A DNA stretch of 64,000 bases from Rhodospirillaceae bacterium. GTDB taxonomy: Bacteria > Pseudomonadota > Alphaproteobacteria > Kiloniellales > DSM-21159. The stretch lies in the NCBI GenBank assembly GCA_006969625.1, contig CP030885.1, forward strand, positions 1,054,001 to 1,118,000. The letters are read 5' to 3'. Under the pieces are notes generated by a model that was not told where the DNA came from, did not search any database, and worked only from the letters and a program-made list of their open reading frames with translations. Below are positions 12,375 to 40,282 of this stretch, piece by piece. Every line of letters starts with the position of its first letter. Within the stretch, counting starts at the first letter, position 1. Both the position numbers and the translations under genes were made by a program.

Positions 12375-12391
12375 TTTCAACTCGCTACGAT
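12364..12391 (+). promoter_or_regulatory. Candidate soxX promoter
   Basis: TTGATA (12364-12369), 16 bases, TACGAT (12386-12391). The fit to sigma-70 is moderate. The leader to the soxX start would be about 150 bases. Confidence 0.35.
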
Positions 12392-12549
12392 TGACGCAAG
12401 AAAACATGAAGGGGCACGCCTGCATGGCAGGAACGTGTCTCTTGCCGGTTGCACGATCCCCGCTCAAGAGGGGCCGGGCCGGTCAAGCAACGGGAAGCCG
12501 CGGTCGCCGGACGCCGAGACAGGCCGCGCCAGTCAGGGGAGAACGCCAG

Positions 12550-13017: not shown

Positions 13018-13146
13018 CGGCACCAGCGCCGCTCCGAGAGAGGGCGTCCGACCACCGTGCGAGCCGAGCGGCCGAGAGAAGCGCGCAGGCGAAGCGGCCC
13101 GGTGCAGGCGGCACGCCAGAGCGAGATGCAAAAGGAGTTTCGCCCG

Positions 13147-13626: not shown

Positions 13627-13651
13627 GGCAGGACGAGAGGAGACGACAGAC

Positions 13652-13984: not shown

Positions 13985-14115
13985 GGTAGAGCGTCTCCGC
14001 TCCTGCCGCCGCTGCGGCCGACACGGGCGGCGGGCGGCGGGTGCGGAGGAGCGCAAGCGAAGCAACACGCGGACGATCGAGGACACAACAACAAGACTCG
14101 ACAGGGGAGATCGCC

Positions 14116-14976
14116 TTGACCTTCAAGACCATCGCCATCGCGCTGGCGGTCGGCTCGCTTGCCGGCGGCGCGGCCCTGGTCGCCAGCTACGGAAGCTCGG
14201 CGGCCGACAAGTCCGGCATCCCGTACCGTGACGGCGAATACGAAACGGTCGAAGCCCCGGAGGGCAGCCCGTTGTCGGAGCTGATCAGCGGCTACTATTT
14301 CCGCACGCCCGAAACGCGGGAATTGCAGGATGACGACTTCATGAACCCGGCCTTCATCTGGATGGAGCAGGGCGCCGAGCTCTGGTCCACGGTCGAGGGC
14401 GAGGCGGGCGAGTCCTGCGCGTCCTGCCACGAGGACGTCGAAGCCTCCATGAAGGGCGTCGGCGCGAGCTACCCGAAGTACCACGAGGCCTCCGGCAAGC
14501 TGATCAACCTCGAGCAGCGCATCAACCTGTGCCGCACCGAGAGCATGCAGGCCGAGCCCTGGAAGTGGGAGTCGGACGAGTTGCTCGGGATGACGGCTTA
14601 CGTCAGGCATCAGTCCAAAGGCATGCCGGTGAACGTCAGCATCGAAGGTCCGGCCGCGCCCTTCTTCGAGAAGGGCAAGGACTTCTACTACCAGCGCCGG
14701 GGACAGCTCGACATGGCCTGCGCCACCTGCCACGAGGTCAACTACGGCATGTACATCCGCGCCGACCTGCTGAGCCAGGGCCAGAGCAACGGCTTTCCGA
14801 CCTACCGGTTGAAGTGGCAGAAGCTCGGCTCCTTGCACCGCCGCTTCCGCGGCTGCAACCGCCAGGTGCGCGCGGTCCCCTATGCCAACGGCTCGGACGA
14901 GTACGTGAACCTCGAACTCTACCTGGCCTGGCGCGGCCAGGGCCTGCCCGTCGAGACACCGGCGGTGCGACAGTAG
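14116..14976 (+). CDS. soxA: SoxA dihaem cytochrome c
   Basis: Catalytic subunit of SoxXA. The 286-aa protein starts at TTG 14116, with GGGGAGA upstream and a signal peptide directly after. It has two haem sites: CASCH (101-105) and CATCH (202-206). Cys139 (INLCR) and Cys247 (FRGCN) fit the unusual cysteine haem ligands of SoxA; Cys247 is the position that is persulfurated in the family. This is the full dihaem form. Confidence 0.94.
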   Translation: MTFKTIAIALAVGSLAGGAALVASYGSSAADKSGIPYRDGEYETVEAPEGSPLSELISGYYFRTPETRELQDDDFMNPAFIWMEQGAELWSTVEGEAGESCASCHEDVEASMKGVGASYPKYHEASGKLINLEQRINLCRTESMQAEPWKWESDELLGMTAYVRHQSKGMPVNVSIEGPAAPFFEKGKDFYYQRRGQLDMACATCHEVNYGMYIRADLLSQGQSNGFPTYRLKWQKLGSLHRRFRGCNRQVRAVPYANGSDEYVNLELYLAWRGQGLPVETPAVRQ

Positions 14977-15133
14977 GCGTTGCGGACGGCGGCGCGGAAT
15001 CGGGTGCCGCCGCCGTCCGGTCCCTTGCGGCAGGGTGATGGCGCCCGGTAGGGCCGGGCGGGACGGGCCGGCATGCCTGTCCGCCGTTCCATCTGCCGCC
15101 CGACAACAGCGAGACCGACAGGCGGCGAGACGC

Positions 15134-16819
15134 ATGTTTTCACGGCGCGATTTCCTGACGGTGGCGGCGGCCACCGCGATCCTGACCGGCGGCAAGGGCC
15201 AGCTCGGCCGCCTGGCGGCGCAGCAGCGCATCTCCCAGGACGACCTGCTGAACTTCGAGCCCTTGGGCCAGGTGACGCTGCTGCACGTCACCGACGTGCA
15301 TGCCCAACTCAAGCCCATCTACTTCCGCGAGCCCTCGATCAACCTGGGCGTCGGCGAGGTCACCGGGCTGCCGCCGCACGTCACCGGGGCGGACTTCCTC
15401 GCCCGCTACGGCCTGGAGCCGGGCAGCCTCGGGGCCTACACCTTGACCGACCAGGACTTCGTGGCGCTTGCCCGCGACTACGGCCAGGTCGGCGGCATGG
15501 ACCGGCTCGCCACCCTGATCAAGGCGATCCGCGCCGAACGGCCCGACAACACGCTGTTCCTCGACGGCGGCGACACCTGGCAGGGTTCCTACACCTCGCT
15601 GCACACCCAGGGCGGCGACATGGTCGAGGTCTTCAAGGCGTTGGGCTGCGACGCCATGACCGCGCACTGGGAGTTCACCTTCGGCCAGGAGCGCGTCGAG
15701 GAGCTGGTCGGCGAACTCGGCTTCCCCTTCCTGTGCGGCAACGTGCGCGACACTGCCTGGGACGAGCCTGTGTTCGAAAACACCGCCTTCTTCGAGCGCG
15801 GCGGCGTGCGCATCGCCGTCGTCGGCCAGGCCTTCCCCTACACGCCGGTCGCCAACCCGCGCTACAAGATCCCCGACTGGTCGTTCGGCATTCGCGAGGA
15901 GGACGTGCAACAGCACGTCAGCACGGCCCGCGCCGAAGGCGCCGAGGTCGTCGTGCTGCTGAGCCACAACGGCTTCGACGTCGACCGCAAGCTGGCCGGC
16001 CGCGTGCCCGGCATCGACGTCATCCTGACCGGCCACACCCACGACGCCCTGCCGAAGGTGGAGCGGGTGGGCGATACCCTGCTGGTGGCTTCGGGCAGCC
16101 ACGGGAAGTTCCTGTCGCGCCTGGACCTGGAGGTGCGGAACGGCCGGGTGGCCGACTTCCGCTACCGTCTGATCCCCGTGCTCGCCGACGCTATCGCCCC
16201 GGATCCGGAGATGGCGGCGCTGGTCGAGCGAATCCGCGCCCCCTTCGCCGGCGAGATCGATCGGGTGCTCGGCACCACCGACCAGTTGCTCTACCGGCGC
16301 GGCAACTTCAACGGCACCTTCGACGACCTGATCTGCCAGGCCCTGCTCGACGAGCGCGACGCCGAGATCGCGCTTTCGCCCGGCTTCCGCTGGGGCGCGA
16401 CGCTGCTGCCGGGCCAGGAGATCACCCTCGACGACGTCTACTCGATGACCTCGATCACCTATCCGGCGGCCTACCGCCAGGAGATGAGCGGCGAGATGCT
16501 GAAGCTCATCATGGAGGACGTCGCCGACAACCTCTTCAACCCTGACCCCTATTACCAGCAGGGCGGCGACATGGTGCGCGTCGGCGGCATGGGCTACACC
16601 ATCGACGTGCACAAGCCGATCGGCGAGCGCATCTCCAACATGACGTTCCTGAAGGACGGCAACCCGATCGACCCGAAGCGCAACTATGTGGTCACCGGCT
16701 GGGCCAGCGTGAACGAGGGCACCGAGGGGCCGCCGGTCTATGACCTGGTCAGCCGCTGGATCGAAAAGCGGGGCACGGTCAAGGTCGCGCCCAACAGCGC
16801 GATCGAGGTGAAGGCCTGA
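15134..16819 (+). CDS. soxB: SoxB dimanganese thiosulfohydrolase
   Basis: Hydrolyses sulfate from the SoxY-bound intermediate. The 561-aa protein has a Tat signal (FSRRDFLTV) and a 5'-nucleotidase-type metallophosphoesterase domain with metal-site motifs TDVHAQL, DGGDTWQGS, AHWEFTFG, LSHNGFD and LTGHTHDA, followed by the C-terminal nucleotidase domain. ATG 15134 was chosen because it gives the Tat leader; the frame stays open upstream. Confidence 0.95.
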   Translation: MFSRRDFLTVAAATAILTGGKGQLGRLAAQQRISQDDLLNFEPLGQVTLLHVTDVHAQLKPIYFREPSINLGVGEVTGLPPHVTGADFLARYGLEPGSLGAYTLTDQDFVALARDYGQVGGMDRLATLIKAIRAERPDNTLFLDGGDTWQGSYTSLHTQGGDMVEVFKALGCDAMTAHWEFTFGQERVEELVGELGFPFLCGNVRDTAWDEPVFENTAFFERGGVRIAVVGQAFPYTPVANPRYKIPDWSFGIREEDVQQHVSTARAEGAEVVVLLSHNGFDVDRKLAGRVPGIDVILTGHTHDALPKVERVGDTLLVASGSHGKFLSRLDLEVRNGRVADFRYRLIPVLADAIAPDPEMAALVERIRAPFAGEIDRVLGTTDQLLYRRGNFNGTFDDLICQALLDERDAEIALSPGFRWGATLLPGQEITLDDVYSMTSITYPAAYRQEMSGEMLKLIMEDVADNLFNPDPYYQQGGDMVRVGGMGYTIDVHKPIGERISNMTFLKDGNPIDPKRNYVVTGWASVNEGTEGPPVYDLVSRWIEKRGTVKVAPNSAIEVKA

Positions 16820-17017: not shown

Positions 17018-17764
17018 ATGGACTTCGGAGTCACATATCTGGGGGCCTTGGGGGCGGGGGCGCTGTCTTTTCTCAGCCCCTGCGTGCTGCCCCTGGTGCC
17101 GCCCTACCTGGCGTTTCTGGCCGGCGTCAGCCTGCAGATGACCGGCGAGGGCACGCTGGCGCTGGACCGCGGCGTCGCCCGCCGGGTCTTCATCGCCGCG
17201 CTCGCCTTCGTGCTGGGCTTCTCGACGGTCTTCGTGCTGATGGGGCTGGGCGCCAGCGCCATCAGCCTGTTCATCGCCCGTTGGGGCCACATCCTGGGGC
17301 CGATCGCCGGCATCATCATCATCGTGCTCGGCCTGCATTTCCTCGGCGTCTTCCGCATCGGCCTGCTTTACCGCGAGGCGCGTTTCCAGGTGCAGGACAA
17401 GCCGGCCGGCCTGCTCGGCGCCTACGTCATCGGGCTGGCCTTCGCCTTCGGCTGGACTCCCTGCGCCGGGCCGGTGCTCTCTGCCGTGCTGGCGACCGCG
17501 GCGACCAGCGACAACATCTACTACGGCGCCAGCCTGCTCGGCACCTATGCCGCCGGCATCGGCATCCCCTTCCTGCTCGCCGCCTTGTTCCTCGAGGGCT
17601 TCATGCGCTGGTTCCAGAAGTTCAAGCGCCACCTGCCGAAGGTGGAAAAGGCCATGGGCGCCTTCCTGGTGCTGACCGGCCTGCTGTTCGTCACCGGCTC
17701 GATGAACCTGATCGGCGAGTGGATGTACAACGAGATCGAGTTCTTCCAGCGCCTGGAATTCTGA
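17018..17764 (+). CDS. soxV: CcdA/SoxV-type thiol electron transporter
   Basis: Six-TM inner-membrane protein (248 aa) of the CcdA/DsbD family, which moves reducing power from cytoplasmic thioredoxin to periplasmic thioredoxins. The redox cysteines are visible in LSPCVLPLVPPYL (Cys22) and GWTPCAGPVL (about residue 149). Its place downstream of soxB suggests the SoxV role of feeding SoxS or SoxW, but a role in cytochrome c maturation (CcdA) is equally possible from sequence. No strong ribosome-binding site is seen before the ATG. Confidence 0.8.
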   Translation: MDFGVTYLGALGAGALSFLSPCVLPLVPPYLAFLAGVSLQMTGEGTLALDRGVARRVFIAALAFVLGFSTVFVLMGLGASAISLFIARWGHILGPIAGIIIIVLGLHFLGVFRIGLLYREARFQVQDKPAGLLGAYVIGLAFAFGWTPCAGPVLSAVLATAATSDNIYYGASLLGTYAAGIGIPFLLAALFLEGFMRWFQKFKRHLPKVEKAMGAFLVLTGLLFVTGSMNLIGEWMYNEIEFFQRLEF

Positions 17765-23922: not shown

Positions 23923-24267
23923 GTGGATCAGATTGTCACCAAGGCGAAAGCCCTCAGCGAGATGGAAGACGGGGCCGAACGGGCGTCGGAGTTCCTCAAG
24001 GCCCTGGCGAACCGCCATCGTTTGATCGTGCTGTGCCTTTTGGCGGAGCGTGAACGCACAGTCAGCGAGCTCGAGGACATTCTGGCGATTCGCCAGCCGA
24101 CCCTGTCGCAACAGCTCGCCCGTCTGCGCGCCGAGAACCTGGTGGAGACCCGGCGCGACGGCAAGCACATCTACTACAGCCTGGCCAGCGACGAGACGCG
24201 CCACGTCATCGAGCTGCTCTACGGCATGTTCTGCGGTCCGATGGCCCAGCAACGCCGCGCCGGCTGA
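23923..24267 (+). CDS. soxR: ArsR-family persulfide-sensing repressor (SoxR/SqrR/BigR type)
   Basis: Winged-helix repressor of 114 aa with ArsR-fold helix-turn-helix (TVSELEDILAIRQPTLSQQLARLRAENLVETRRDGKHIYYSL). It lacks the ArsR metal box but has exactly two cysteines, Cys38 (IVLCLLAE) and Cys104 (GMFCGP). The 66-residue spacing equals that of the SqrR, BigR and P. denitrificans SoxR cysteines, which form a polysulfide link when persulfides are present. Starts at GTG 23923. Placed between sox blocks, it probably represses sox genes in the absence of sulfide or thiosulfate; the target is inferred. Confidence 0.78.
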   Translation: MDQIVTKAKALSEMEDGAERASEFLKALANRHRLIVLCLLAERERTVSELEDILAIRQPTLSQQLARLRAENLVETRRDGKHIYYSLASDETRHVIELLYGMFCGPMAQQRRAG

Positions 24268-24968: not shown

Positions 24969-25628
24969 TCAGTCGATCGGCGCCTGGCCGCCGTCGTCCG
25001 GCGTGACGTCGAGGATGCGCGCCTTGCCGAGGATCTCCACCGAGTCCCGGCAGTCCGTCATGCAGGGCTCGTGCGGCGGAAACTCCGGCTCGCTCATCAG
25101 GAAGAAGCCGTCGGCGTTCGGCATCTCGACCTCGGCCAGGTTGTCCTGGTCGAGCACCTGCTCGTACTCGACGATGTCGTTCAGCCAGAGCACGTAGGCG
25201 GTCAGCGCGTAGGTCTCGTCGACGCTCAGCGACTGCGCGTTGCCAAAGGGCATGGCGCGGTAGATGTAATCCCAGACCGTGGAGGCGTAGGGCCAGTAGC
25301 TGCCGACCGTCTTTTCCGGGCGGTCCTGGGTCAGCGACTCGAAGCCGCCCATCAGCACCGGATAGCGTCCGATGCCCTCGCCGAAGTCCCCGTGGCAGAA
25401 GGCGCACTGGTTGGCGTAGAGCTCCTCGCCGTCGGCGGCCGAGCCGCTGCCCGGCGGCAGGCCCGCGCCGTCGGGCCGGATGTCGATGTCCCACGCGGCG
25501 ATCTGCTCCGGCGTCGCCGGCGTGCCCAGTCCGTAGGTCTTGCCCTCCTCGGCGAGCGCTTGGGCGCCGGCCAGAAGGGCGGCCGCAGCCGCGGCGAGCA
25601 GCAGGCCGCGCTTAGCCGAGACGGACAT
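24969..25628 (-). CDS. soxD: SoxD-type cytochrome c subunit of sulfane dehydrogenase (monohaem)
   Basis: Cytochrome partner of SoxC, 219 aa, with a signal peptide and one haem site CAFCH (C75, C78, H79). Typical SoxD text is present (YGLGTPATPEQIAAWDIDIRPDG, then GSYWPYASTVWDYIYRAMPFG). Paracoccus SoxD is dihaem and about 380 residues; this one stops before the second cytochrome domain. The start ATG 25628 (GGAGTGG upstream) lies inside the soxC 3' end, overlapping by 17 bases. Confidence 0.88.
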   Translation of the reverse strand: MSVSAKRGLLLAAAAAALLAGAQALAEEGKTYGLGTPATPEQIAAWDIDIRPDGAGLPPGSGSAADGEELYANQCAFCHGDFGEGIGRYPVLMGGFESLTQDRPEKTVGSYWPYASTVWDYIYRAMPFGNAQSLSVDETYALTAYVLWLNDIVEYEQVLDQDNLAEVEMPNADGFFLMSEPEFPPHEPCMTDCRDSVEILGKARILDVTPDDGGQAPID

Positions 25629-26946
25629 TGTCGACCACTCCGTTCGCATTCACCAGCCAGGTCTGGATCGAGTTGTTGTGGTAGATCGAATTGACGCCGC
25701 GGACTTCCTGCAGCGCCGCCATCCGCGGCTGCACGTAGCCCGTCTCGTCCATCGCCCGGCTCTGCAGCAGCAACTCCTGGCCGTGCCACTCGAAGGGCAG
25801 GGTGAAAAAGGTCAGCGCCTTGGGTAGCACCGGCCCGTGGAGCTGGGCGGCCTGCCAGTTGATGCCGCCGTCGAGCGAGACGTCAACCCGGCTGATCCGG
25901 CCGTGGCCCGACCAGGCCAGACCCTTGAGCACCTGCGGCCCTTCCGCGCGCATCGGCTTCTCGGGGCTCGGACTGGTGATCACCGACTTGGCGTCCATCA
26001 CCCAGGTGAACTTGCGCGCCTTGCCGTTGGGCAGCAGGTCCGTGTACTTCGAGGTCTCCTCGCGGTGGTACCAGGCCTTGTCGCCGACCTCGATCCGGCG
26101 CAGCCACTTGACCCACATGTTGCCTTCCCAACCGGGCACGATCAGGCGCACCGGGTAGCCCTGCTCGGCGCGCAGCCGCTCGCCGTTCATAGAGTAGACG
26201 ACCATGCAGTCGTCGAGCGCCTTTTCCAGCGGGATCGAGCGGGTCATGCCGGCGGAGTCGCCGCCCTCGGCCAGGATCCACTTGGCGCTGGTCTTGACGC
26301 CGGCTTCCTGCAGCAGGGTCTTCAGCGGCACGCCCGTGTAGTAGACGCAGTGGATCATGCCGTGGGTGTACTGGACGCCGTTGAGTTGGGCGCCGCGCCA
26401 TTCCATGCCGGAGTTCGCCGCGCACTCCAGGAAGTGGAAGCGCGATTCCGGCGGGAAGCGCATGATGTCCTGGTAGGTGAAGATCAGCGGCCGGTCGACC
26501 AGGCCGTTGATCATCAGGCGGTAATCCTCCGGCGGGACGATCGCCATGCCGCCGTGATGGCGCTCGAAGCACAGGCCGTTCGGCGTGACGAAGCCGTCCA
26601 TTTCGTGGATCGGCGTGAAGTTCACCGAGGACTCGCTGGTCGCCGTCAACCATTCCACGTTGCGTCGCACGACGTGGCTTTCGAACTCGACCGGCATGCC
26701 GTAGGGGTGCGCGTCGACGCCGGCCCCCAGGTAACGGCTCCAGTCGGGGATGTTGGGGGGCAGGTTCTCAGGATTGCCGGCCAGCGCCTTGCCGCCGAGC
26801 AGTCCGCCGGCCGCCAGGGCGCCGCCGGCCGCGGCCGAGCCGGCCAGGAAGCGGCGGCGGGCGGCGGACACCGGTCCGCCTTGCCGCTGCGCGTCTGCGG
26901 GGATCTGCATGGGCAGTCGCCCGCGCGTGCGCGTCTTGTCCGTCAT
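25612..26946 (-). CDS. soxC: SoxC molybdenum subunit of sulfane dehydrogenase
   Basis: Sulfite-oxidase-family molybdoenzyme of 444 aa that, with SoxD, oxidises the outer sulfur on SoxY. It has a Tat signal (ARRRFLAG, residues 29-36), a molybdopterin domain with the Mo-ligating Cys175 in FLECAANSG, and a C-terminal dimerisation domain (VDVSLDGGINW). It has no haem of its own, as expected. A shared regulatory motif lies about 100 bases upstream. Confidence 0.92.
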   Translation of the reverse strand: MTDKTRTRGRLPMQIPADAQRQGGPVSAARRRFLAGSAAAGGALAAGGLLGGKALAGNPENLPPNIPDWSRYLGAGVDAHPYGMPVEFESHVVRRNVEWLTATSESSVNFTPIHEMDGFVTPNGLCFERHHGGMAIVPPEDYRLMINGLVDRPLIFTYQDIMRFPPESRFHFLECAANSGMEWRGAQLNGVQYTHGMIHCVYYTGVPLKTLLQEAGVKTSAKWILAEGGDSAGMTRSIPLEKALDDCMVVYSMNGERLRAEQGYPVRLIVPGWEGNMWVKWLRRIEVGDKAWYHREETSKYTDLLPNGKARKFTWVMDAKSVITSPSPEKPMRAEGPQVLKGLAWSGHGRISRVDVSLDGGINWQAAQLHGPVLPKALTFFTLPFEWHGQELLLQSRAMDETGYVQPRMAALQEVRGVNSIYHNNSIQTWLVNANGVVDNVRLG

Positions 26947-27024: not shown

Positions 27025-27052
27025 ACCCTACCGAGCCCGCTCATTATATCAA
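27025..27052 (-). promoter_or_regulatory. Candidate soxC promoter
   Basis: On the minus strand, TTGATA (27052-27047), 16 bases, TAGGGT (27030-27025). The -10 is poor; the call rests mainly on the same spacing and -35 as the soxX candidate. Confidence 0.3.
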
Positions 27053-27062
27053 GAGTGAATAT
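27042..27062 (-). promoter_or_regulatory. Candidate sox operator (copy 2)
   Basis: On the minus strand this reads ATATTCACTCTTGATATAAT plus G. It is the partner of the motif at 12354-12374 and is itself an imperfect palindrome with ATAT at both ends. It sits between the soxW stop and the soxC start, so it marks soxC as a separately regulated transcript. Confidence 0.5.
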
Positions 27063-27097
27063 GTTTAGCCGTCACCTACCTGCGACCTTTTGTTGCG

Positions 27098-27685
27098 TCA
27101 GCTCGCTTGCTGGCGCTTCAGGAAGGCCCTGAAGTCCTTCTCCTCGTAAGCCTTCTCGCGAACGTAGCGGAACATCGCCAGGAAGTGCGGCGGCTTGAAG
27201 TAGCCGGGCATGCGCGCGACCTCGATTTCGATGCCGACCTGGCCGGCGGCCACCTCCGGGTCTGCCGGGAAGAAGTGCACGGTCGGGGTGAAGCGGATGC
27301 CCCAGCGCCGCGCCATGCTGCGTTCGTCCAGCACTTCGCCGTCGAAGTCGACCGTCTCGCGCAGCCCGTGGATGTTGAGTTGCAGGATTTCGAAGTTGTC
27401 GCGGACGTAGGCGTTGATCTCCGGATCAGCGAAGTTCACCAGGTGCATTTCCTTGCAGTAGGGGCAGCCCTTCTGCTCCCAGATCACTGCAAGGCGCTTG
27501 CCGTTGTCCGCCGCCTCGGCCAGGTCTTCCTGCAGGTCGAGGAAAGAGTGCATGAACCAGGGCTGGGTATAGAGTCCGTCGTCGTTGACGAGCGGCTCGA
27601 CTCGCTCGGCCCCGCCGGCCGACCGGCCGCCCAGCGCCAGCAGGCCGCCGGCGGCGGCCAGCAGAAGGTCGCGTCGCTTGAACAT
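27098..27685 (-). CDS. soxW: SoxW-type periplasmic thioredoxin
   Basis: Exported thiol-disulfide protein, 195 aa, with a signal peptide (FKRRDLLLAAAGGLLALGG) and a thioredoxin active site GCPYCKEMH (C74, C77), then a cis-Pro loop RFTPTVHFF. SoxW in Paracoccus receives electrons from SoxV. It lies upstream of soxC on the same strand but is separated by the candidate soxC promoter. Confidence 0.86.
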   Translation of the reverse strand: MFKRRDLLLAAAGGLLALGGRSAGGAERVEPLVNDDGLYTQPWFMHSFLDLQEDLAEAADNGKRLAVIWEQKGCPYCKEMHLVNFADPEINAYVRDNFEILQLNIHGLRETVDFDGEVLDERSMARRWGIRFTPTVHFFPADPEVAAGQVGIEIEVARMPGYFKPPHFLAMFRYVREKAYEEKDFRAFLKRQQAS

Positions 27686-27875
27686 AGGCCGGTCTCGCTC
27701 CCGATCTCGCTCGCTGCGGCCTGGCCTCCGCGCCCCGGGGTGACGGCACCGCTCGGCCAGCCTATCCTTGGCGATCATATTCTTGTGGCTGAAAGTGTAC
27801 GGCCTGGGGTAGGGCAGAAGCAAGCGGGCGCACGCGGTCCGTCGAGAGGGCGGCGGCGCCACGGGGGAGGAAGGC

Positions 27876-29444
27876 ATGCAGCACGCGGCCGCCCAGGTCA
27901 GCGTTCCCGACCGCGGCCGCGGCCTGCGCCGGTTCGGCTATGCCGTGGCGCTGCTGGTGTCCTCGGCCGGGGGCCTGGTGCTGGAGATCGTCGCCGGGCG
28001 CATGATCGCGCCTTACGTCGGCATGTCGCTCTACACCTGGACGGCCGTCATCGCGGTGGTACTGGCCGGCTTCTCGGCGGGCCACTGGATCGGCGGCATG
28101 CTGACCGAGGGCAGCCTGCGCGCCTGCTACCGGCGGCTGGCTTGGCTGCTGCTGGCGGCGGCGGCGAGCGCCGGGGCCTGCCTGCCGCTGATCCGCCTGA
28201 TTTCGCCGCTGGTGCTCGGCGGCGACGGCGACCCGCTGGTATCCATCGTCGTCTTCACCGGCCTGCTGTTTTTCCTGCCGAGCCTGTTCGTCGGCACGGT
28301 CTCGCCGATCCTGACCCGGCTGGCGGTGCTCGAGCTGCCGCAGCGACCGGGCGTGGCGATCGGCCAGATGTTCGCCCTCGGCGCCGTCGGCTCGATCGCC
28401 GGCACGCTGCTGGCCGGCTACCTCTTCCTCTCCTGGATCGGCTCGACCTGGACCGTCGTCGCGGTCGCCGCCAGCTATCTGGCGCTGACGGCTGGCTTCG
28501 CCTTCGCCGCCCGGTTGCGCGCCCGCGAGGCGGCGGCCCTGGCGGCGGCGGCCGGGGCGGCCTTGCTGGCGGTCCTCGTGCCCGGCCAACGGCTGGCGGC
28601 GCTGACGCCGCCCTGCCTCGTCGAGTCGGACTACTACTGCCTGAACGCCGTCGACTTCACCGCGCAGGCCGGCCGCCCGGCCACGTTGATGGTGATCGAC
28701 CACATGGCGCACGGCATCAACGACCGCGACGACCCGACGGCGCTGCATTCCAGCTACATCGACCTGATCGACGCGCTGGTGCCGGTGCGCCTGGCCGGCG
28801 CCGAGGCCTTCGAGGCGCTGTTCCTCGGCGGCGGCGCCTACACCCTGCCGCGCGCCTGGCAGGCGCGCTATCCCCAGGCCGGCCAACTGGTCTACGAGAT
28901 CGACCCGCAGGTTACGGCCTTGGCCGAGGCCCGCTTCTGGTTCGATCCCACCGGCATCGACATCCGGCACGAGGACGGCCGTCTGGGTCTCGAGCGGCTG
29001 CCGGCGACCCGGCAGTTCGACGTCGTCGTCGGCGACGCCTTCCACGACTTCGCGGCGCCGCCCCACCTGGTGACGCGCGAGTTCGCGGCGCTGTTGCGCG
29101 CGCGCCTGTCGCCCGGCGGCTTCTATGCCCAGAACGTGATCGACAGCGCCGAGGATCCGCACTTCCTCTACGCCTTCGTCAAGACGCTGCGGCGGGTCTT
29201 CGCCCACGTCGAGGTCTGGGTCGATCTGGAGCAGCTCCGCGGTGGCGGGCGCGGCACCTATCTGGTCGTCGCGGGGGCCGAGGCGACGCCGCAAGACCGG
29301 CTGGCCTCGCCGCGGCACAGTTGGGTGATCTGGCCGGACTCGATCCTGACGCCGCGCATCGCCGCCGCCGACGTCCCGGTGCTGCGCGACGACTACGCAC
29401 CGGTGGCGCGCTTGATGCGCCGGGTCCTGGAGGACGATCTTTAG
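27876..29444 (+). CDS. Membrane-fused spermidine-synthase-like methyltransferase-fold protein
   Basis: Protein of 522 aa. The first ~235 residues form about seven TM segments in the MFS-like style of fused spermidine synthases (SSAGGLVLEIVAGRMIAPYVG, FSAGHWIGGML). The rest is a spermidine-synthase fold: FLGGGAYTLPRAWQARYPQ, VYEIDPQVTALAEARFWFD, DVVVGDAFHDFAAPPHLVTREF. The polyamine-binding pocket is not conserved clearly enough to claim spermidine synthesis. It is divergent from soxW and begins a three-gene run with two secreted proteins. Confidence 0.8.
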   Translation: MQHAAAQVSVPDRGRGLRRFGYAVALLVSSAGGLVLEIVAGRMIAPYVGMSLYTWTAVIAVVLAGFSAGHWIGGMLTEGSLRACYRRLAWLLLAAAASAGACLPLIRLISPLVLGGDGDPLVSIVVFTGLLFFLPSLFVGTVSPILTRLAVLELPQRPGVAIGQMFALGAVGSIAGTLLAGYLFLSWIGSTWTVVAVAASYLALTAGFAFAARLRAREAAALAAAAGAALLAVLVPGQRLAALTPPCLVESDYYCLNAVDFTAQAGRPATLMVIDHMAHGINDRDDPTALHSSYIDLIDALVPVRLAGAEAFEALFLGGGAYTLPRAWQARYPQAGQLVYEIDPQVTALAEARFWFDPTGIDIRHEDGRLGLERLPATRQFDVVVGDAFHDFAAPPHLVTREFAALLRARLSPGGFYAQNVIDSAEDPHFLYAFVKTLRRVFAHVEVWVDLEQLRGGGRGTYLVVAGAEATPQDRLASPRHSWVIWPDSILTPRIAAADVPVLRDDYAPVARLMRRVLEDDL

Positions 29445-29496
29445 GCGACTTCGGCCCGCCCGCAGAGGCGGGGTTTCGTACGGGAGAAACGTCACC

Positions 29497-30222
29497 ATGC
29501 TTCGCCTGCTTGCGCCCCTGGCCGTCTGCCTCGGCCTCAGCGTCAGCCTGCCGGCCGCCGCCAGCGAGCTGTCCGACTTCAACGCCGCCGTCGACGCGGC
29601 GATGGATCACCAGCGCGCAGCCTTGTTCTACCTGCGCACCGGCAATCCCCTGGTCGCCGAGATCGAGCTGGAGAGCGCAGCGGAGCGCTGGTCCGAGGTG
29701 ATGGGGCGCTGGGGCGCGCAGGGCCCGGCCGCCTTTTCCGACGTGGCGGACTGGGCCGGCGAGATGGCCGCCGTCGAAGCCGCGCTCGCCGGCGCCGCGG
29801 CGGCGGCGGCCGAGGGAGAGGCCGAGGCGGCGGCGGCGGCGCTGAAGCCGATCGGGGGCCGGCTGTCGGACCTGCGCCAGGCGGCCGGCGTCCTCGTCTT
29901 CGCCGACCGCGTCGCCGAGGCCAACCGGGCGATGGACGCGCTCTGGGTCTACCGCCGCCAGGAGATCGACTGGGCGGACGCGGCGCAGGTGAACGACCTG
30001 CGCGCCAAGACAGCGGTGACGGCCTACCTCTACCGCCGGCTGATGCAGACAGCCGCGCCGGCGGTGGCGGGCGATCCGGAATTCGTGCGCATGGCCGAGG
30101 GCACGCTGGACGGCCTCGGCCTGATGTGGGGCGCCATCGACCGCCAGGATGCCGGCACCGTGGTCAACATCCTGCGCGAGATCCGCTCGTTCGACGACCT
30201 GCTGTGGCTGAGGTTCGGATGA
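29497..30222 (+). CDS. Secreted helical protein of unknown function
   Basis: I do not recognise this 241-aa protein. It has a clear signal peptide (LRLLAPLAVCLGLSVSLPAAAS). The mature part is predicted almost all helical and alanine-rich (residues ~90-120), with amphipathic stretches such as DAAMDHQRAALFYLRTGNPLVAEIELESA. There is no CXXCH and no catalytic motif. A four-helix-bundle, cytochrome-c556-like fold without haem is one possibility. It is followed by the DsrE-like gene with a 4-base overlap, so the two are co-translated. Confidence 0.7.
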   Translation: MLRLLAPLAVCLGLSVSLPAAASELSDFNAAVDAAMDHQRAALFYLRTGNPLVAEIELESAAERWSEVMGRWGAQGPAAFSDVADWAGEMAAVEAALAGAAAAAAEGEAEAAAAALKPIGGRLSDLRQAAGVLVFADRVAEANRAMDALWVYRRQEIDWADAAQVNDLRAKTAVTAYLYRRLMQTAAPAVAGDPEFVRMAEGTLDGLGLMWGAIDRQDAGTVVNILREIRSFDDLLWLRFG

Positions 30223-30668
30223 CCTGCCGACTGCTGACCCTGCTCGCCCTGCTGCTGCTGGCGGCGCCGGCCTCGGCCGACCGGGTTGAGACCGAACTGG
30301 CCGAGCCGCAGCCCGATTTCGCCCAGCCGCGCCAGATCCTGCTGCAGATCTCCAGCGACGACGAGACGGCAATCAATAACATTCTCTGGAACGCCATCAA
30401 CCTGCAGAAGTTCTACGGCGTCGACAACGTCGAGATCGCCGTCGTCGTCTTCGGCCCCGGCATGGCGGCGCTCTACCGGGACTCGCCGGTGCAAGCGCGG
30501 ATCGAAAGTCAGTTGAAGTACGGCATCCGCTTCATCGGCTGCGGCAACACGATGGAGGCCACCGGCCGCAGCGCGGACGACTTGATCGACGGCGTGGATC
30601 ACGTCCAGGCCGGGATCGCCGAGATCGTCGAGCGGCAACTGCGCGGCTGGGTCTACGTCCGCCCCTGA
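30219..30668 (+). CDS. Periplasmic DsrE-family protein
   Basis: DsrE/DsrF-like fold, 149 aa, with a signal peptide (LLTLLALLLLAAPASA). Family signatures are ILLQISSDDETAINNILWNAINLQ, IAVVVFGPGMAAL and GIRFIGCGNTMEA; Cys108 is at the position that carries sulfur in DsrE-type proteins. ATG 30219 overlaps the previous stop (ATGA). Exported DsrE-like proteins are common near sulfur-oxidation genes, but their reaction is not settled; a persulfide carrier role is inference. Confidence 0.82.
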   Translation: MTCRLLTLLALLLLAAPASADRVETELAEPQPDFAQPRQILLQISSDDETAINNILWNAINLQKFYGVDNVEIAVVVFGPGMAALYRDSPVQARIESQLKYGIRFIGCGNTMEATGRSADDLIDGVDHVQAGIAEIVERQLRGWVYVRP

Positions 30669-31198: not shown

Positions 31199-33214
31199 AT
31201 GATCACGAAACTCAGTGACGTCAGGATCACCACCAAGACCTTCGGGGGTTTCGCCGTGGTGCTGCTGCTGTTGGTTGCCATCGGCGGCGGTGCCATCTTC
31301 GCCCTCTCCGGCGCCAGCGACACTTTCGAGCGGTATCGCCAGTTGGCCCGGCAGTCCAACGCCATGGCGAGCGTCACCGACGCGATGATGCTGACCCGCA
31401 TCGCCGTGAAGGACTTCATCATCCGCGGCGACGAGGAGAGCGCAGCCCGTGTGCGCAAGCACGAGAAGCAGGGCATGGAAGCATCGTCCGCGGCCGCAGG
31501 CCTCTTCAAGAGCCCAGAGAAGATCGAGGTTCTCAAGCGCATCGAGAATGGGCTGAAGGGCTACGAGGCCGCCTTCGAGGAGGTGGTGCAACGCCAGGCG
31601 CGCCGCGACGAGCTGGTGCTGAACGGCATGAACCAGGTCGGCCCGGAAGTCCGCAAGAAGCTCACGGAAATCATGGAGAGTGCCTATAGCGACGGCGACG
31701 CCGAGGCCGCCTACCGCGCCGGTGTCGTCCAGCAGCACCTGATGCTGGCGCGCTTCTACGTGCAGAAGTTCCTGGTCGCGAACGAAGAGGCGGACTACCA
31801 GCGGGTCATGGCCGAGCTCGAGTCGATGCGTCAGGCGGCCGACGTGCTGCAGCGCGAGCTGCAGAACCCGACGCGGCGCCAGCTCGCCGACGCGGTGCTC
31901 GAAGGGACCGAGACCTACAAGGATTTCTTCGAGCAGGTGCATGCGACCATCGTCGATCGCAACGGCATCATCGCCGGACGCCTGGACGTGGTCGGCCCGG
32001 AGATCATGGGGGCGGCCGCGGAGCTGTCGGACCTCGCGCGCGCCGAACAGGACGAGCTGGGCCCGCAGGCGACGGCTGCCATGCAGTCCGCGGTGACCAT
32101 GGTCATCGTGGCGGCGGTGATCGCCGTGCTGCTGGGAGCGGCCGCGGCCTGGCTGATCGGCACCGGCATCGCCCGTCCGATCGGTGCGATGACGGCGGCG
32201 ATGCGGCGTCTGGCGGACGGCGACAAGACGGTCGAGATCCCGGCGGTCGGCCAGAAGGACGAGATCGGCGAGATGGCCGAGACGGTGCAGGTGTTCAAGG
32301 ACTCGATGATCGAGGCCGAGCGCCTGGCGGCCGAGCAGGCCAAGGCGCAGGAGGCGCAGGTGGCGCGCGCCAAGCGGCTGGAGGAGCTGACGGCGAACTT
32401 CGACGCGGCGGTCGCCCAGGTGCTGCAGGGCGTCTCCGGGGCGGCCGAGGAGATGCAGGCCACGGCGCAGTCGATGTCCTCGATCGCCGACCAGACCAAG
32501 GGCCAGGCGAGCTCGGCCTCGAGCGCCTCGACGCAGGCTTCGGCCAACGTGCAGACGGTGGCCTCGGCGGCGGAGGAGCTGAGCGGCTCGATCCGCGAGA
32601 TCGCCCGCCAGGTCGAGCAGTCGGCCGGCACCTCCAAGCACGCGGTGGGTCAGGCCGACCAGACCAAGGAGACGGTGCAGCAGCTCGCCAAGGCGGCGGA
32701 GAAGATCGGCGAGGTGGTCAATCTGATCTCCGACATCGCCGAGCAGACCAACCTGCTGGCGCTGAACGCCACGATCGAGGCGGCGCGCGCCGGCGAGGCG
32801 GGCAAGGGCTTCGCGGTGGTCGCCTCGGAGGTCAAGTCGCTGGCGACCCAGACGGCCAAGGCGACCGAGGAGATCGCGCAGCAGATCTCGGAGATCCAGG
32901 GGGCGACCGGCGGCGCGGTCGAGGCGATCGGTCAGATCGCCAAGACGGTCGAGGAGCTGAACGGCATCGCCGGGTCGATCTCGGCGGCGGTCGAGCAGCA
33001 GACGGCGGCCACCGGCGAGATCGCCCGCAACGTCCAGGAGGCGGCCACCGGCACCAACGAGGTCACCCAGACCCTGACCCACGTGAACGGCGGCGCGGAC
33101 GAGACCAGCCGTGCCGCGGGCCAGGTGCTGGAGGCGGTCGGCGAGCTGAGCCGCCAGACCGACGGCCTGCGCCGCGAGGTCGACGAGTTCCTCGCCGGCG
33201 TCAGGGCGGCCTGA
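31199..33214 (+). CDS. Methyl-accepting chemotaxis protein (helical ligand-binding domain)
   Basis: Transmembrane chemoreceptor, 671 aa. TM1 is at about residues 15-38. An all-helical periplasmic domain of about 260 residues follows, the size of a helical bimodular (HBM) domain, then TM2 ([23 protein letters not shown]), a HAMP domain ([22 protein letters not shown]) and a methyl-accepting signalling domain with the hairpin tip [38 protein letters not shown]. The ligand is unknown. The last 1042 bases are nearly identical to those of the next chemoreceptor. Confidence 0.93.
32173..33214 (+). repeat. Near-identical direct repeat, copy 1 (chemoreceptor 3' half)
   Basis: Aligns without gaps to 35111-36152 (constant offset 2938), with about two dozen differences by eye. 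It starts at the HAMP domain and ends at the stop codon. Upstream of it the two genes are unrelated. Confidence 0.9.
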
Positions 33215-33905: not shown

Positions 33906-36152
33906 ATGTCGTTGCAACCTCGGATCGACGCTCCCCGCCCGGCTCGGGTGGGTGACGCACAGCGCAAGGCCGGTGCCTGGACCTGGCTGACCAGGGTCAA
34001 GATCTCGACACGGCTGATCGCCGGCTTCGCCGCCTTGACGGTGACCGGCGCGGCCACGGGCGTGACCGGCCTGATCTATCTCGAAGAGATCAACGCGACG
34101 GTGAACCGGATCACCGACGTGACCGCGCCGACGGTCGAGACCTCGGACGACCTGATCGCCAACATCTGGCAGTCGACCAAGGTGGCCGAAGAGATCGTCG
34201 CGGAGGAGGAGCTGGCCGACACCGCAGAGCTGATCGAGGAGTTCGAGGCACTGGCCAAGGCCTTCGCCGTGTCCTATCAGGAGTTGAGCGGTCTGGTGGA
34301 CGACCCCGACCTGCTCGACGAGCTCGATGCGGCGCGCACCGAGCATGGCGAGTTCACCGGGCACACGCGCGAGATGATCGACGCGCATCGCGCCATGCTG
34401 GAAGAAGAGGCGAAGGCCAAGCGGCTGATCGCGGAGTTCGATGACGCCGGGGCGGAGCTGATCGTCGCCCTGGACGAGTTCGCGGAAGAGAACGAGGCGG
34501 AAATGGCGGAGGCCGAAGAGGAAGGCGACCGCCTGGCCCAGACCGGCGCCGGCGCGGCCCAGCTCAACGACGTCCTCGGCCGTCTGTTCGAGGAGGATTA
34601 TCCGGTTGTCGAGGCGGCGCTCAAGCTGCAGCGGCTGGTCATGGAGATGCAGGACACGGCCGGCGAGTACCTGGCCGAGGAGGATGCCGCGCGGCTGGCG
34701 CCGATCCAGGCCGAGTTCATGGCCCTGTACGACTCCACCCGCGCCTTCACCCAGATCCTGGGCGATCTGGCCGAGACGCAAGAGGACCGGGACGACGCGG
34801 CGGCGATCCAGAGCCTGTTCGCGAACTGGGTCAAGCGGGCAACCGACGACGAGCTGCTGTTCGACACCCACCGCGACATGCTCGAGGCCGAAGCCCAGGC
34901 CAAGGAGCTCACCGAACGTCTGGAAGGCGATGCCGACAGCGTGGCGGGCGCGCTGGACGACGTCGCCAGTGCCGCCGACGCCCTGAACGACACTGCCGAC
35001 GAGGCGGCCAATGCCGCGGTCGGTGCGGCCGAACTCCTGATCGCCGGGATGCTGGTCCTCTGCCTGCTGCTGTCGCTCGCCCTGGCCGCCGTGGTGATCG
35101 GCACCGTCACCCGTCCGATCGGCGCGATGACGGCGGCGATGCGGCGTCTGGCGGACGGCGACAAGACGGTCGAGATCCCGGCGGTCGGCCAGAAGGACGA
35201 GGTCGGCGAGATGGCCGAGACGGTGCAGGTGTTCAAGGACTCGATGATCGAGGCCGAGCGCCTGGCGGCCGAGCAGGCCAAGGCGCAGGAGGCGCAGGTG
35301 GCGCGCGCCAAGCGGCTGGAGGAGCTGACGGCGAACTTCGACGCGGCGGTCGCCCAGGTGCTGCAGGGCGTCTCCGGGGCGGCCGAGGAAATGCAGGCCA
35401 CGGCGCAGTCGATGTCCTCGATCGCCGACCAGACCAAGGGCCAGGCGAGCTCGGCCTCGAGCGCCTCGACGCAGGCTTCGGCCAACGTGCAGACGGTGGC
35501 CTCGGCGGCGGAGGAGCTGAGCGGCTCGATCCGCGAGATCGCCCGCCAGGTCGAGCAGTCGGCGGAGACTTCCAAACACGCGGTGGGCCAGGCCGACCAG
35601 ACCAAGGAGACGGTGCAGCAGCTCGCCAAGGCGGCGGAGAAGATCGGCGAGGTGGTCAACCTGATCTCCGACATCGCCGAGCAGACCAACCTGCTGGCGC
35701 TGAACGCCACGATCGAGGCGGCGCGCGCCGGCGAGGCGGGCAAGGGCTTCGCGGTGGTCGCCTCGGAGGTCAAGTCGCTGGCGACCCAGACGGCGAAGGC
35801 GACCGAGGAGATCGCGCAGCAGATCTCGGAGATCCAGGGGGCGACCGGCGGCGCGGTCGAGGCGATCGGTCAGATCGCCAAGACGGTCGAGGAGCTGAAC
35901 GGCATCGCCGGGTCGATCTCGGCGGCGGTCGAGCAGCAGACGGCGGCCACCGGCGAGATCGCCCGCAACGTCCAGGAGGCGGCCACCGGCACCAACGAGG
36001 TCACCCAGACCCTGACCCAGGTCAACGGCGGCGCCGAGGAGACCAGCAACTCCGCCGGCCAGGTGCTGGAGGCGGTCGGCGAGCTGGGCCGCCAGACCGA
36101 CGGCCTGCGCCGCGAGGTCGACCAGTTCCTCGCCGGCGTCAAGGCCGCCTGA
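33906..36152 (+). CDS. Methyl-accepting chemotaxis protein (acidic helical ligand-binding domain)
   Basis: Transmembrane chemoreceptor, 748 aa. TM1 lies at about residues 38-60. An unusually acidic helical periplasmic domain of about 310 residues follows (for example [20 protein letters not shown] and [15 protein letters not shown]). Then come TM2, HAMP and a signalling domain almost identical to the preceding receptor. The start ATG 33906 has CTGGAGAG upstream. The periplasmic half is not homologous to that of its neighbour by eye, so the pair shares output but senses different things. Confidence 0.92.
35111..36152 (+). repeat. Near-identical direct repeat, copy 2 (chemoreceptor 3' half)
   Basis: Partner of 32173-33214; same length and no gaps. 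Most differences cluster around 35563-35592 and in the last ~140 bases, a pattern that fits gene conversion tracts. Confidence 0.9.
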
Positions 36153-36266: not shown

Positions 36267-37820
36267 TTGGCGAAGGGAATGGACTCCGGAGCCTTTTCGC
36301 ATGCGGTGACGCGGCAAGCCTTCGACGCCGCGATTTTCGATCTCGACGGGGTGCTGACGGACACCGCGGCGTTGCACGCGCACGCCTGGAAGGCGCTGTT
36401 CGACCCCCTTCTCGCCCGACACGGCCAACCGCCCTTCGACATCGAAACGGACTATCGCCGCTACGTCGACGGCATGCGGCGGGAGGACGGCATCCGCAGC
36501 TTCCTCGCGGCGCGCGGCATCGACCTGCCGGAGGCCGAGCGCAAGCGCTTGGCCGCCGAGAAGAACGATCACTTCCGCCGGATGCTCGACGAGCGGGGCG
36601 TGCCGAAGCTGGCGGCCAACATCGCCTTTCTGCGGCGCCTGCGCCGGGCCGGCTATCGCACCGCCGTGGTCTCGGCCAGCCGCAATGCGCCGCACATCGT
36701 GGACAGGGCCGGCCTGGCCGGCGAGCTCGACGCGCTGGTCAGCGGCATCACCGCCGCCGAGGAGGGCCTGGCAGGCAAGCCGGCGCCCGACACCTTTCTC
36801 GCCGCTGCGGCCCGGCTCGGCGTGCCGCCGGCGCGCTGCCTGGTCGTCGAGGACGCCCAGTCGGGCGTCCGGGCCGGGCATGACGGGCGGTTCGGCCTGG
36901 TGATCGGCCTGGCCGGGCCGGCCGCCGACGCACGCACCCGCGACGGCCTGCGCCGGCACGGCGCCGATCTCGTCGTCACCGATCTCAGCGAGGTACCCGT
37001 GAGCGACCCGCAAACCCGCAGCGCCGCGGCGCTGCCCTCGGCCCTGGCCGAGGTGGACGGCCTGCTCGGCCGGCTCGGCAGCCGCCGGCCCGCCTTCTTC
37101 CTGGACTATGACGGCACGCTGACGCCGATCGTCGACCGGCCCGACCTGGCCAGGCTGTCGCCCGAAATGCGCGACACCCTGGAGCGGCTGGCGCAGGTCT
37201 GCACCGTCGCCGTGGTCAGCGGCCGCGGGCTGGAGGATGTGCGCAACCTGGTGGGCGCCCCCGATCTGATCTACGCCGGCAGCCACGGCTTCGAGATCGC
37301 CGGACCTGAGGGCCTGTCGATCCGCTCCGAGAAGGGCACCGAGTACCTGCCGGCGCTGGACGAGATGGAAGCGCGGCTGCAGGCGCGCCTGCAGCCGGTT
37401 TCCGGCGCCCTGGTCGAGCGCAAGCGATTCTCCATTGCGGTGCATTACCGTCTGGTCGATCCGCACGACCAGCCGCAGATCGAGGCCGCGGTGGCGGCGG
37501 CGCTGCAGGCGCACCGCGGCTTCCGTAAGGGCCTGGGCAAGAAGGTCTACGAGATCCAGCCGGACATCGACTGGCACAAGGGCCGCGCCGTGCGCTGGTT
37601 GATCGAGGCGCTGGAATTGGATTTGGCGGCGACGCTGCCGATCTACATCGGCGACGACGTCACCGACGAAGACGCCTTTCGTGTGCTGGCCGACGACGGC
37701 CTCGGCATCCTGGTCCGCGATGGCGGCGGCGAAGCGCAGGAGACCGCTGCCATCTACGCGCTCGACTCGACGGACGAGGTGCGCGCCTTTTTCGACCGCA
37801 TCCTGGAGCGTTTGGCATGA
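36267..37820 (+). CDS. HAD hydrolase/beta-phosphoglucomutase-like + trehalose-phosphatase fusion
   Basis: Two-domain protein of 517 aa. Residues ~15-235 are a beta-phosphoglucomutase-type HAD domain (FDLDGVLTDTA with Asp25 and Asp27; AGKPAPDTF; VVEDAQSGV). Residues ~265-515 are a trehalose-6-phosphate phosphatase (FFLDYDGTLTPI with Asp280 and Asp282; VSGRGLEDV; GSHGFEI; GDDVTDEDAF). The GH65 gene follows with a 4-base overlap. Together the two equal the M. tuberculosis OtsB1 (HAD-TPP-GH65) in order and total length. TTG 36267 with GAGGG upstream was preferred; ATG 36279 is the alternative. Confidence 0.87.
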   Translation: MAKGMDSGAFSHAVTRQAFDAAIFDLDGVLTDTAALHAHAWKALFDPLLARHGQPPFDIETDYRRYVDGMRREDGIRSFLAARGIDLPEAERKRLAAEKNDHFRRMLDERGVPKLAANIAFLRRLRRAGYRTAVVSASRNAPHIVDRAGLAGELDALVSGITAAEEGLAGKPAPDTFLAAAARLGVPPARCLVVEDAQSGVRAGHDGRFGLVIGLAGPAADARTRDGLRRHGADLVVTDLSEVPVSDPQTRSAAALPSALAEVDGLLGRLGSRRPAFFLDYDGTLTPIVDRPDLARLSPEMRDTLERLAQVCTVAVVSGRGLEDVRNLVGAPDLIYAGSHGFEIAGPEGLSIRSEKGTEYLPALDEMEARLQARLQPVSGALVERKRFSIAVHYRLVDPHDQPQIEAAVAAALQAHRGFRKGLGKKVYEIQPDIDWHKGRAVRWLIEALELDLAATLPIYIGDDVTDEDAFRVLADDGLGILVRDGGGEAQETAAIYALDSTDEVRAFFDRILERLA

Positions 37821-40282
37821 ACGAGTGGTCGCTGATCTACGAGGGCTTCGATCCGGAAGCCGAGCCGACGCGCGAGGCGCTCTGCACGCTCGGCAACGGC
37901 TACATGGCGACGCGCGGAGCGCAGGACGAAACGCACGCGGGCGGCCCGCATTATCCCGGGACCTATCTGGCCGGCGGCTACAACCGTCTGGTCACGGAGG
38001 TCGCCGGGCGGCCGATCGAGAACGAGGACCTGGTCAACTTCCCCAACTGGCTGCCGGTCGGCTTCCGCCATACGGACGGCGCCGACGAGGACGCGCGCGG
38101 CTGGTTCGATCTGCACAAGGTGGAGATCCTGGACTATCGCCAGGAACTCGACATGGCCGAGGCGGTGCTGCACCGCCGGCTGCGGGTCCGCGATGCGGAA
38201 GGCCGGATCTCGCGGATCGAAAGCCGCCGCCTGGTCTCGATGGACGCCCCGCACCTGGCCGCGCAGCGCTGGTCGCTGACGCCCGAGAACTGGCGCGGCC
38301 CGATCGAAGTGCGCGCCGCGCTCGACGGTCGCGTCGTCAACGGCGGCGTCGCCCGTTACCAGTCCCTGCGCAACCAGCACCTCGAAGTAGAGACGGCCGA
38401 GGTCACCGAGGACGGGCTGCTGCAGCTGGACGCGCGGACCAGCCAGTCGCGCCTGCGCATGGTCCAGGCGGCGCGCGTGCGCCTGTTTCACGGCCAGGAA
38501 CCGCTGGACACGCCGCCGCTGCCGGCCTCGTCCGCCGGCGTGGCGGAGGCGCGCTATCGTCTGGAGGCCCGCCAGGGCGAGCCGATCGTCCTGGAGAAGG
38601 TGGTCGCCGTCTTCACCGCGCGCGACCGCGCGATCAGCGAACCCGGCAGCGCCGCACGCGAGTCGGCGCACGCCGCGGGCGACTTCGAGGCGCTGCACCG
38701 CCGCCATGCCCTCCAATGGGGGCAGCTCTGGCGCCGCTTCGACATGCGAATCTCGAACACGACGCAGGAAGACACCGCGCGGATGAATCTGATCCTGCGC
38801 CTGCACGTCTTCCACCTCTTGCAGACCACCAGCCCGCACACCTGCGACCTGGACGTCGGCGTGCCGGCGCGTGGTCTGCATGGCGAGGCCTACCGCGGCC
38901 ATGTCTTCTGGGACGAGCTCTTCATCTTCCCCTTGCTGAACCAACGGCTCCCGGAGATCACGCGGGGCTTGCTGCTGTACCGCTACCGGCGACTGAACGC
39001 GGCGCGCGCGCTGGCGGCGAGCCAGGGGTGCAGAGGCGCCATGTATCCCTGGCAGTCCGGCAGCAGCGGGCGCGAGGAAACCCAGCAGGTCCACCTGAAC
39101 CCGAAGTCCGGCCGCTGGTTGCCGGACAACAGCCACCTGCAGCGGCATGTCAACCTGGCGATCGCCTACAATGTCTGGCGCTACGTGCAGGTCAACGACG
39201 ACACCGAGTTCCTGAGCGCCTACGGCGCCGAGATGATATTGGAGATCGCCCGCTTCTTCGCCTCGCTGTCCAGCTACAACGCCACCACAGGGCGCTGGGA
39301 GATCCTCGGCGTGATGGGGCCGGACGAGTACCACGACGGCTATCCCGACGCCGATGAACCGGGCCTCGACAACAACGCCTACACCAACGTGATGGTCTGC
39401 TGGCTGCTCCGCCGGGCCCGTCGGCTGCTCGATCGCGTGCCCTTCCACCGGCGCGAGGAGCTCTGCGAGGACCTGGAGATCAGCGACGACGAGCTGGCGC
39501 GCTGGGACGAGATCGCCGCCGGCATGACCGTTTGCTTCCATCCGGACGACGACGGCAATCCGGTGATCAGCCAGTTCCAGGGCTACGGCGATCTGCTGGA
39601 GTTCGACTGGGTCGGCTACGCCCACAAGTACGGCGACATCCAGCGGCTCGACCGCATTCTCGAGGCGGAAGGCGACACGCCCAACCGCTACAAGCTGTCG
39701 AAGCAGGCCGACGTCCTGATGCTGTTCTATCTGCTGTCGACGGAAGAGCTGGACGAACTCTTCCAGGTCATGGGCTACGCCTGGGACGGCAAGCTGTTGG
39801 AGCGCACCATCGCCTACTACTCGGCACGCACCTCGCACGGCTCCACGCTCAGCCGCGTCGTGCACTCCTGGGTGCTGGCGCGCGTCGACCGCGGGCGCTC
39901 CTGGCAGCTCTTCTGCGAAGCGCTGAAGAGCGACGTATCCGACATCCAGGGCGGTACCACCTCGGAGGGCATCCACCTCGGCGCCATGGCCGGGACGGTC
40001 GACCTGATGCAGCGCGGCTACACCGGCATGCAGCTCGCAGAGGACGTGCTCTGGCTCAACCCACGCCTGCCGGCAGAGCTGACGCGCCTCGAAATGGAGA
40101 TGCGCTATCGCGGTCACTTCCTGCAGTTCCTGGTCACCCACGACCGACTGCGAATCGCGGCCTCGAACCATCTCGTCGGGCCGATCCGCATCGGCTTCGA
40201 GGGGCGGGTCTACGACATCTCCGACGGCCGGAGCCTCGACTTCGATCTCGCCGAGGCCGAGCCTCGGCGCAGGACTGGCTAG
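37817..40282 (+). CDS. Glycoside hydrolase family 65 protein (alpha-glucoside phosphorylase type)
   Basis: GH65 enzyme of 821 aa, the family of trehalose, maltose, kojibiose and nigerose phosphorylases. It has an N-terminal beta-sandwich domain (LIYEGFDPEAEPTREALCTLGNGYMATRGA), an (alpha/alpha)6 barrel with GLHGEAYRGHVFWDELF, and the general-acid region GVMGPDEYH (Glu504), then the C-terminal jelly roll. The substrate cannot be told; the phosphatase and phosphoglucomutase-like partner upstream points to trehalose or trehalose-6-phosphate. ATG overlaps the preceding stop (ATGA). Confidence 0.87.
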   Translation: MNEWSLIYEGFDPEAEPTREALCTLGNGYMATRGAQDETHAGGPHYPGTYLAGGYNRLVTEVAGRPIENEDLVNFPNWLPVGFRHTDGADEDARGWFDLHKVEILDYRQELDMAEAVLHRRLRVRDAEGRISRIESRRLVSMDAPHLAAQRWSLTPENWRGPIEVRAALDGRVVNGGVARYQSLRNQHLEVETAEVTEDGLLQLDARTSQSRLRMVQAARVRLFHGQEPLDTPPLPASSAGVAEARYRLEARQGEPIVLEKVVAVFTARDRAISEPGSAARESAHAAGDFEALHRRHALQWGQLWRRFDMRISNTTQEDTARMNLILRLHVFHLLQTTSPHTCDLDVGVPARGLHGEAYRGHVFWDELFIFPLLNQRLPEITRGLLLYRYRRLNAARALAASQGCRGAMYPWQSGSSGREETQQVHLNPKSGRWLPDNSHLQRHVNLAIAYNVWRYVQVNDDTEFLSAYGAEMILEIARFFASLSSYNATTGRWEILGVMGPDEYHDGYPDADEPGLDNNAYTNVMVCWLLRRARRLLDRVPFHRREELCEDLEISDDELARWDEIAAGMTVCFHPDDDGNPVISQFQGYGDLLEFDWVGYAHKYGDIQRLDRILEAEGDTPNRYKLSKQADVLMLFYLLSTEELDELFQVMGYAWDGKLLERTIAYYSARTSHGSTLSRVVHSWVLARVDRGRSWQLFCEALKSDVSDIQGGTTSEGIHLGAMAGTVDLMQRGYTGMQLAEDVLWLNPRLPAELTRLEMEMRYRGHFLQFLVTHDRLRIAASNHLVGPIRIGFEGRVYDISDGRSLDFDLAEAEPRRRTG

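Follow-up and report, generated by a model that had tools for sequence, protein, structure and literature searches.

An exported helical protein encoded beside soxW as a very probable, previously overlooked component of the Sox system in Alphaproteobacteria

The stretch of DNA analysed here (the window, 64 kb from a 4.62 Mb single-contig genome) carries a sox locus in two halves, about 6 kb apart, with unrelated genes between them. One half consists of soxX, soxY, soxZ, soxA and soxB (12391-16819, plus strand), all identified by NCBIfam equivalogs over their cut-offs, followed by soxV for a CcdA/DsbD-like protein (17018-17764, plus strand). The other contains a gene for a SoxR-like ArsR-type repressor with two cysteines (23923-24267, plus strand; assigned by sequence and conserved position in sox loci), a soxD-type cytochrome c gene (24969-25649, minus strand; PF00034 and position), soxC for sulfane (sulfite) dehydrogenase (25612-26946, minus strand; TIGR04555, 635 bits, over the NCBIfam cut-off) and soxW for a periplasmic thioredoxin (27098-27685, minus strand; PF13098 and position in homologous sox loci). 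Divergent from soxW and starting 190 bp from it lies gene A (27876-29444, plus strand, 522 amino acids), followed by gene B (29497-30222, plus strand, 241 amino acids) and gene C (30219-30668, plus strand, 149 amino acids; ATG at 30219, stop ending at 30668). The gene order in relatives is soxR, soxD, soxC and soxW, then A, B and in some cases C, then soxV, soxB and soxA; the soxXYZABV half of the window is inverted relative to this order, and soxV lies about 12 kb from B. Minus-strand frames for a SoxS-like protein (11960-12355) and a GlcG-like protein (PRK09732 match), within 11364-12467, adjoin soxX and are kept in the sox loci of relatives.

The initial annotation had described three same-strand genes diverging from soxW, all with membrane or export signals and the last two translationally coupled. 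The coordinates bear this out, with A, B and C on the plus strand and soxW on the minus strand. The predicted structure of A has seven transmembrane helices, and B and C each start with a typical signal peptide as judged by eye. The ATG of C overlaps the stop codon of B (ATGA), which makes translational coupling of these two genes plausible. All three are coding, in that GC content by codon position fits and substitutions among homologues fall mostly at third positions. An origin of B as a shadow-ORF artefact was ruled out by its conserved homologues and the same third-position substitutions.

B had been called an unrecognised, secreted, helical protein, and it remains one: comparison with Pfam and NCBIfam returned nothing above chance. 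Weak Pfam matches (YfdX, DUF4363 and cytochrome b562) all fall below their cut-offs. Structure prediction of B alone, which had been suggested as a check, gave a confident AF2 model (pLDDT 91.3, pTM 0.78) with eight main helices arranged as two tandem four-helix bundles, residues 18-132 and 133-241. That the two bundles arose by internal duplication is only suggested, at an hhalign probability of 55%. Foldseek found no significant match for B among solved structures (best E 0.06), and VIA aligned each half with cytochrome b562/c'-like and sensor bundles at Z of about 11-13 over 99-104 residues, values that are common for helical bundles. Since the Foldseek search was null and generic bundles dominated the VIA list, the fold alone names no function for B. 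As far as Pfam, NCBIfam and the open papers show, B represents an undescribed family.

Conserved residues of B bear on two readings of its function. Each half shares the fold type of cytochrome b562 and cytochrome c' (6r6m, 3iq5) and aligns with such structures, and one distant paralogue scores 24.5 bits with the Pfam cytochrome b562 model, below its cut-off of 30, as might be expected if B were a b- or c-type cytochrome of this group carrying electrons for Sox. However, window B differs from these proteins by its tandem bundles and has no significant sequence match to them, and neither a CxxCH motif nor a histidine conserved among sox-linked members was found as a heme ligand; a cytochrome is thus a highly improbable identity for B. 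Arginines are near-invariant in the family at positions 40, 127, 129, 153, 198, 227 and 230, and the second bundle alone resembles the helical domains of sensors, McpS among them (Z 13.0, 103 residues). B could accordingly bind a small sulfur-oxygen anion (thiosulfate, tetrathionate or sulfate) through these arginines as a sensor or buffer, but helical bundles often reach a Z of about 13, B has no attached signalling domain and the arginines may only form salt bridges, so that we consider anion binding improbable. A glycine is also near-invariant at the extreme C-terminal end. Many homologues carry cysteines at 138 and 182, which helix-hairpin geometry would make neighbours; window B has arginine and leucine there and neither family cysteine. 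Disulfide chemistry as the essential activity of B was rejected for the window copy on this ground.

The place of B in sox loci is conserved. It lies beside soxW and divergent from it in 27 sampled loci from distinct genomes (the window, L015-L025, L047, L051-L057, L068-L071, L073, L126 and L127), with A between the two in 10. B is tail-to-tail with soxV in 24 of the 27 (C intervening in three), the remaining loci being the window, L055 and L070. Even in L126 and L127, which come from a different family and are much diverged, B is antisense between soxV and soxW. B also stays by soxW where soxXYZAB or soxCD have moved (the window, L025 and L070), and in genome G405 soxW ends one contig and B starts another, which fits adjacency of the two.

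Co-occurrence of the three genes with sox genes, which had likewise been set as a check, was found for B. In the order to which the window belongs, 14 of 61 genomes carry B, 13 of them with true soxB; the fourteenth is 69% complete and has soxAZYX on the same contig as B. A profile search of 386 alphaproteobacterial genomes detected B in nine and soxB in 36, all nine B genomes being soxB-positive, while profile A2 found B in none of the 350 soxB-negative genomes. The resulting P of about 2e-10 overstates the evidence, given the relatedness of the genomes; the conserved position of B supports the link separately. Detection depended on the query: a contig scan with a single B sequence missed all relatives and an alignment-based scan found 17, and a plasmid collection searched with two B proteins gave no match. 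Genome comparison shows B to be part of the sox locus, placed next to soxW and usually soxV, with close homologues only in soxB-positive genomes. Its constant place beside soxW in 27 sampled loci makes B a very probable, hitherto overlooked component of the Sox system, and we regard its membership of Sox as almost certain. A wider profile, A3, also picks up diverged paralogues of B that lie away from sox loci (L074, L125 and L128); with L129, likewise outside them, these may point to a wider family of exported double four-helix-bundle proteins.

About three quarters of soxB-positive Alphaproteobacteria have no detectable B (9 of 36 carry it), and two congeners (L137 and L138) keep soxC, soxD and A with no detectable B or C. 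B is therefore not essential to Sox. These congeners (L137 and L138, with L076 and L084) have soxC, soxD and A at one site and soxXYZABV at another. The same distribution bears on the suggestion that B serves a Sox enzyme (SoxAX, SoxCD or SoxYZ) in the periplasm as a chaperone or maturation factor, independently of SoxV/SoxW redox chemistry. An exported, all-helical protein that is strictly sox-linked at close range, lacks a catalytic motif and ends in a near-invariant glycine would suit such a role. However, the position of B follows that of soxW and soxV and not that of an enzyme gene, and many genomes with the same Sox enzymes have no B, which leaves this role unlikely, if still worth weighing.

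In most sox loci the interval between soxW and A or B holds a palindrome, ACATATTC-N8-GAATATGT, often as the sole copy in the stretch. It is perfect in L015 and L017, most other loci match it at 10-15 of 16 positions, and L126 has it too; no convincing copy was found in L127, L166, L138 or L071. The window copy, TCATATTC-N8-GAAAGTGT at 27775-27798 in the divergent soxW/A promoter region, is the best match in the 64 kb (13 of 16 positions) and forms a candidate SoxR/SqrR-type operator. The palindrome matches in sequence the SqrR recognition site ATTC-N8-GAAT, as quoted in PMC9774250, and SoxR is described in PMC10451225 as a close relative of SqrR. In a dinucleotide-shuffle test at two mismatches, 13 of 100 shuffles reached two matches, so that the two matches in the window are not significant and the weight of the operator rests on its position and conservation. 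The A/B region is thus likely to be under SoxR control through a candidate operator common with soxW. The second-best ATTC-N8-GAAT-like palindrome in the window (27041-27064) lies upstream of soxC and is possibly another SoxR site. Together with synteny and co-occurrence, the SqrR/SoxR-type operator common with soxW strongly supports the earlier proposal of a module attached to Sox.

The description of the first gene as encoding a membrane spermidine-synthase-like protein was borne out. A scores 603 bits with the NCBIfam family NF037959, fused MFS/spermidine synthase (cut-off 40), and its AF2 model (pLDDT 80.5) shows seven transmembrane helices followed by a Rossmann domain, for which the best Foldseek match is 3gjy of C. 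glutamicum (E 8e-11). A 12-helix MFS membrane part was ruled out by the seven helices in the model. Lysine and arginine are concentrated in the N-terminus and loops 2, 4 and 6 and are lacking from loops 1, 3 and 5 in 12 of 12 homologues, a positive-inside pattern that predicts a soluble domain outside, in the periplasm. C247 and C255 (CX7C) are invariant in the 12 sox-linked homologues and are also kept in more distant A proteins. The catalytic DxxD pair of spermidine synthase was not found in A: the DGSDP motif of 6qmm aligns to GDAFHD, the second aspartate being replaced by histidine or arginine. A thus shares the soluble fold of 3gjy and scores far above the NF037959 cut-off, but differs in its seven helices, predicted periplasmic domain, CX7C pair and lost second aspartate. 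The fold and profile match would also suit a true spermidine synthase that lies near soxW incidentally; however, besides the lost aspartate, a periplasmic domain would lack access to decarboxylated SAM, and A is repeatedly sox-linked, making this reading very improbable. The predicted periplasmic domain, invariant cysteine pair and lost catalytic aspartate indicate that A probably does not act as a spermidine synthase. Relatives of A also occur outside sox loci (L171).

The product of C had been described as a periplasmic DsrE-like protein, which agrees with its signal peptide (by eye) and its alignment with the solved MTH1491 (1l1s; E 1.7e-20) over 111 residues including the conserved cysteine. 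The Pfam DsrE model (PF02635) scores window C at 20.7 bits, below its curated cut-off of 22.7; sox-linked C homologues in L139 and L056 pass it. The single cysteine of C, in an F..C.NT motif, is invariant in 23 sox-locus sequences. Within the order, C was found in 9 of 29 soxB-positive genomes and in none of the remaining 32 (P 6e-4). Whereas C resembles MTH1491-type proteins in sequence, it differs from them in being exported and sox-linked. To our knowledge, those DsrEFH proteins whose function is known reside in the cytoplasm.

The initial annotation had treated the three genes as a unit, and this was only partly upheld. All three adjoin in four genomes (the window, L016, L018 and L019), but B is also found where A or C is missing, directly following soxW with no intervening A in L023, L025, L047, L051-L057, L126 and L127, some loci have A but no B (L078, L166 and two congeners, L137 and L138), and C-like proteins fill the soxW-soxV slot instead of B (L139, L152 and L157) or follow soxD or an FccB-like gene in sox clusters. 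B is thus the core, and A-B-C is not a fixed unit. The sulfur-handling role assigned to the trio fared similarly, being plausible for C with its invariant cysteine and possible for A with its invariant pair, but not apparent for window B, which lacks cysteines at the usual family positions.

The sox locus of Paracoccus, Rhodovulum and Bradyrhizobium (soxRS-VW-XYZABCD) has the same core genes, soxV/soxW/soxS thiol helpers and SoxR control. Neither of two published gene lists, soxTRSVWXYZABCD (PMC5748708) and soxT(R)S-soxVW-soxAX-soxYZBCDorf1Forf2 (PMC3797975), names a B-type gene between soxV and soxW. Among the open papers searched, none described a gene between soxV and soxW or linked spermidine-synthase-like proteins to sox. 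A and C are known families in an unusual setting; B adds a component to a known system and does not amount to a new kind of system.

Work cited in PMC10451225 holds that SoxV reduces SoxW, with involvement in thiosulfate oxidation, and that SoxS protects SoxYZ. The place of B in the soxW-soxV slot, the candidate operator common with soxW and the export of the protein are most economically explained if B helps the thiol branch as a non-catalytic partner. We tentatively propose that A, B and C may form a SoxR-controlled accessory module of the SoxV/SoxW branch. They would be transcribed from the SoxR-controlled region common with soxW, and B, exported and folded as two heme-free four-helix bundles, would act as a binding partner or scaffold where this branch delivers thiol reductant to the periplasm. 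B might, for example, dock SoxW or the carrier SoxYZ and so allow thiols that are wrongly oxidized or over-sulfurated to be reset; gene order alone cannot name SoxW, SoxV or SoxYZ as the partner. By further inference, C would be a periplasmic carrier holding sulfane sulfur on its only cysteine, and A would present a redox-active or disulfide-bonded Rossmann-like domain at the outer face of the inner membrane through its invariant cysteine pair, making no spermidine. That B in the SoxV-SoxW reductant branch, the redox domain of A and the periplasmic DsrE carrier together form a relay or repair complex for SoxYZ-borne sulfur is a more doubtful step.

A protein family with a constant place between soxW and soxV in several lineages, and apparently controlled by the same repressor, offers a direct genetic handle on two questions of the Sox pathway: which proteins receive the reducing power of SoxV/SoxW, and how the periplasm manages sulfane sulfur. 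These data also suggest that textbook lists of sox genes do not cover the full set in Alphaproteobacteria.

Downstream of C lie two tandem chemoreceptor genes (31199-33214 and 33906-36152) with near-identical C-terminal halves, and a similar chemoreceptor gene follows A in the congener L138. Beyond them, an apparent HAD phosphatase/trehalose-phosphatase fusion (36267-37820) overlaps a GH65-like phosphorylase gene (37817-40282), both as judged by eye only.
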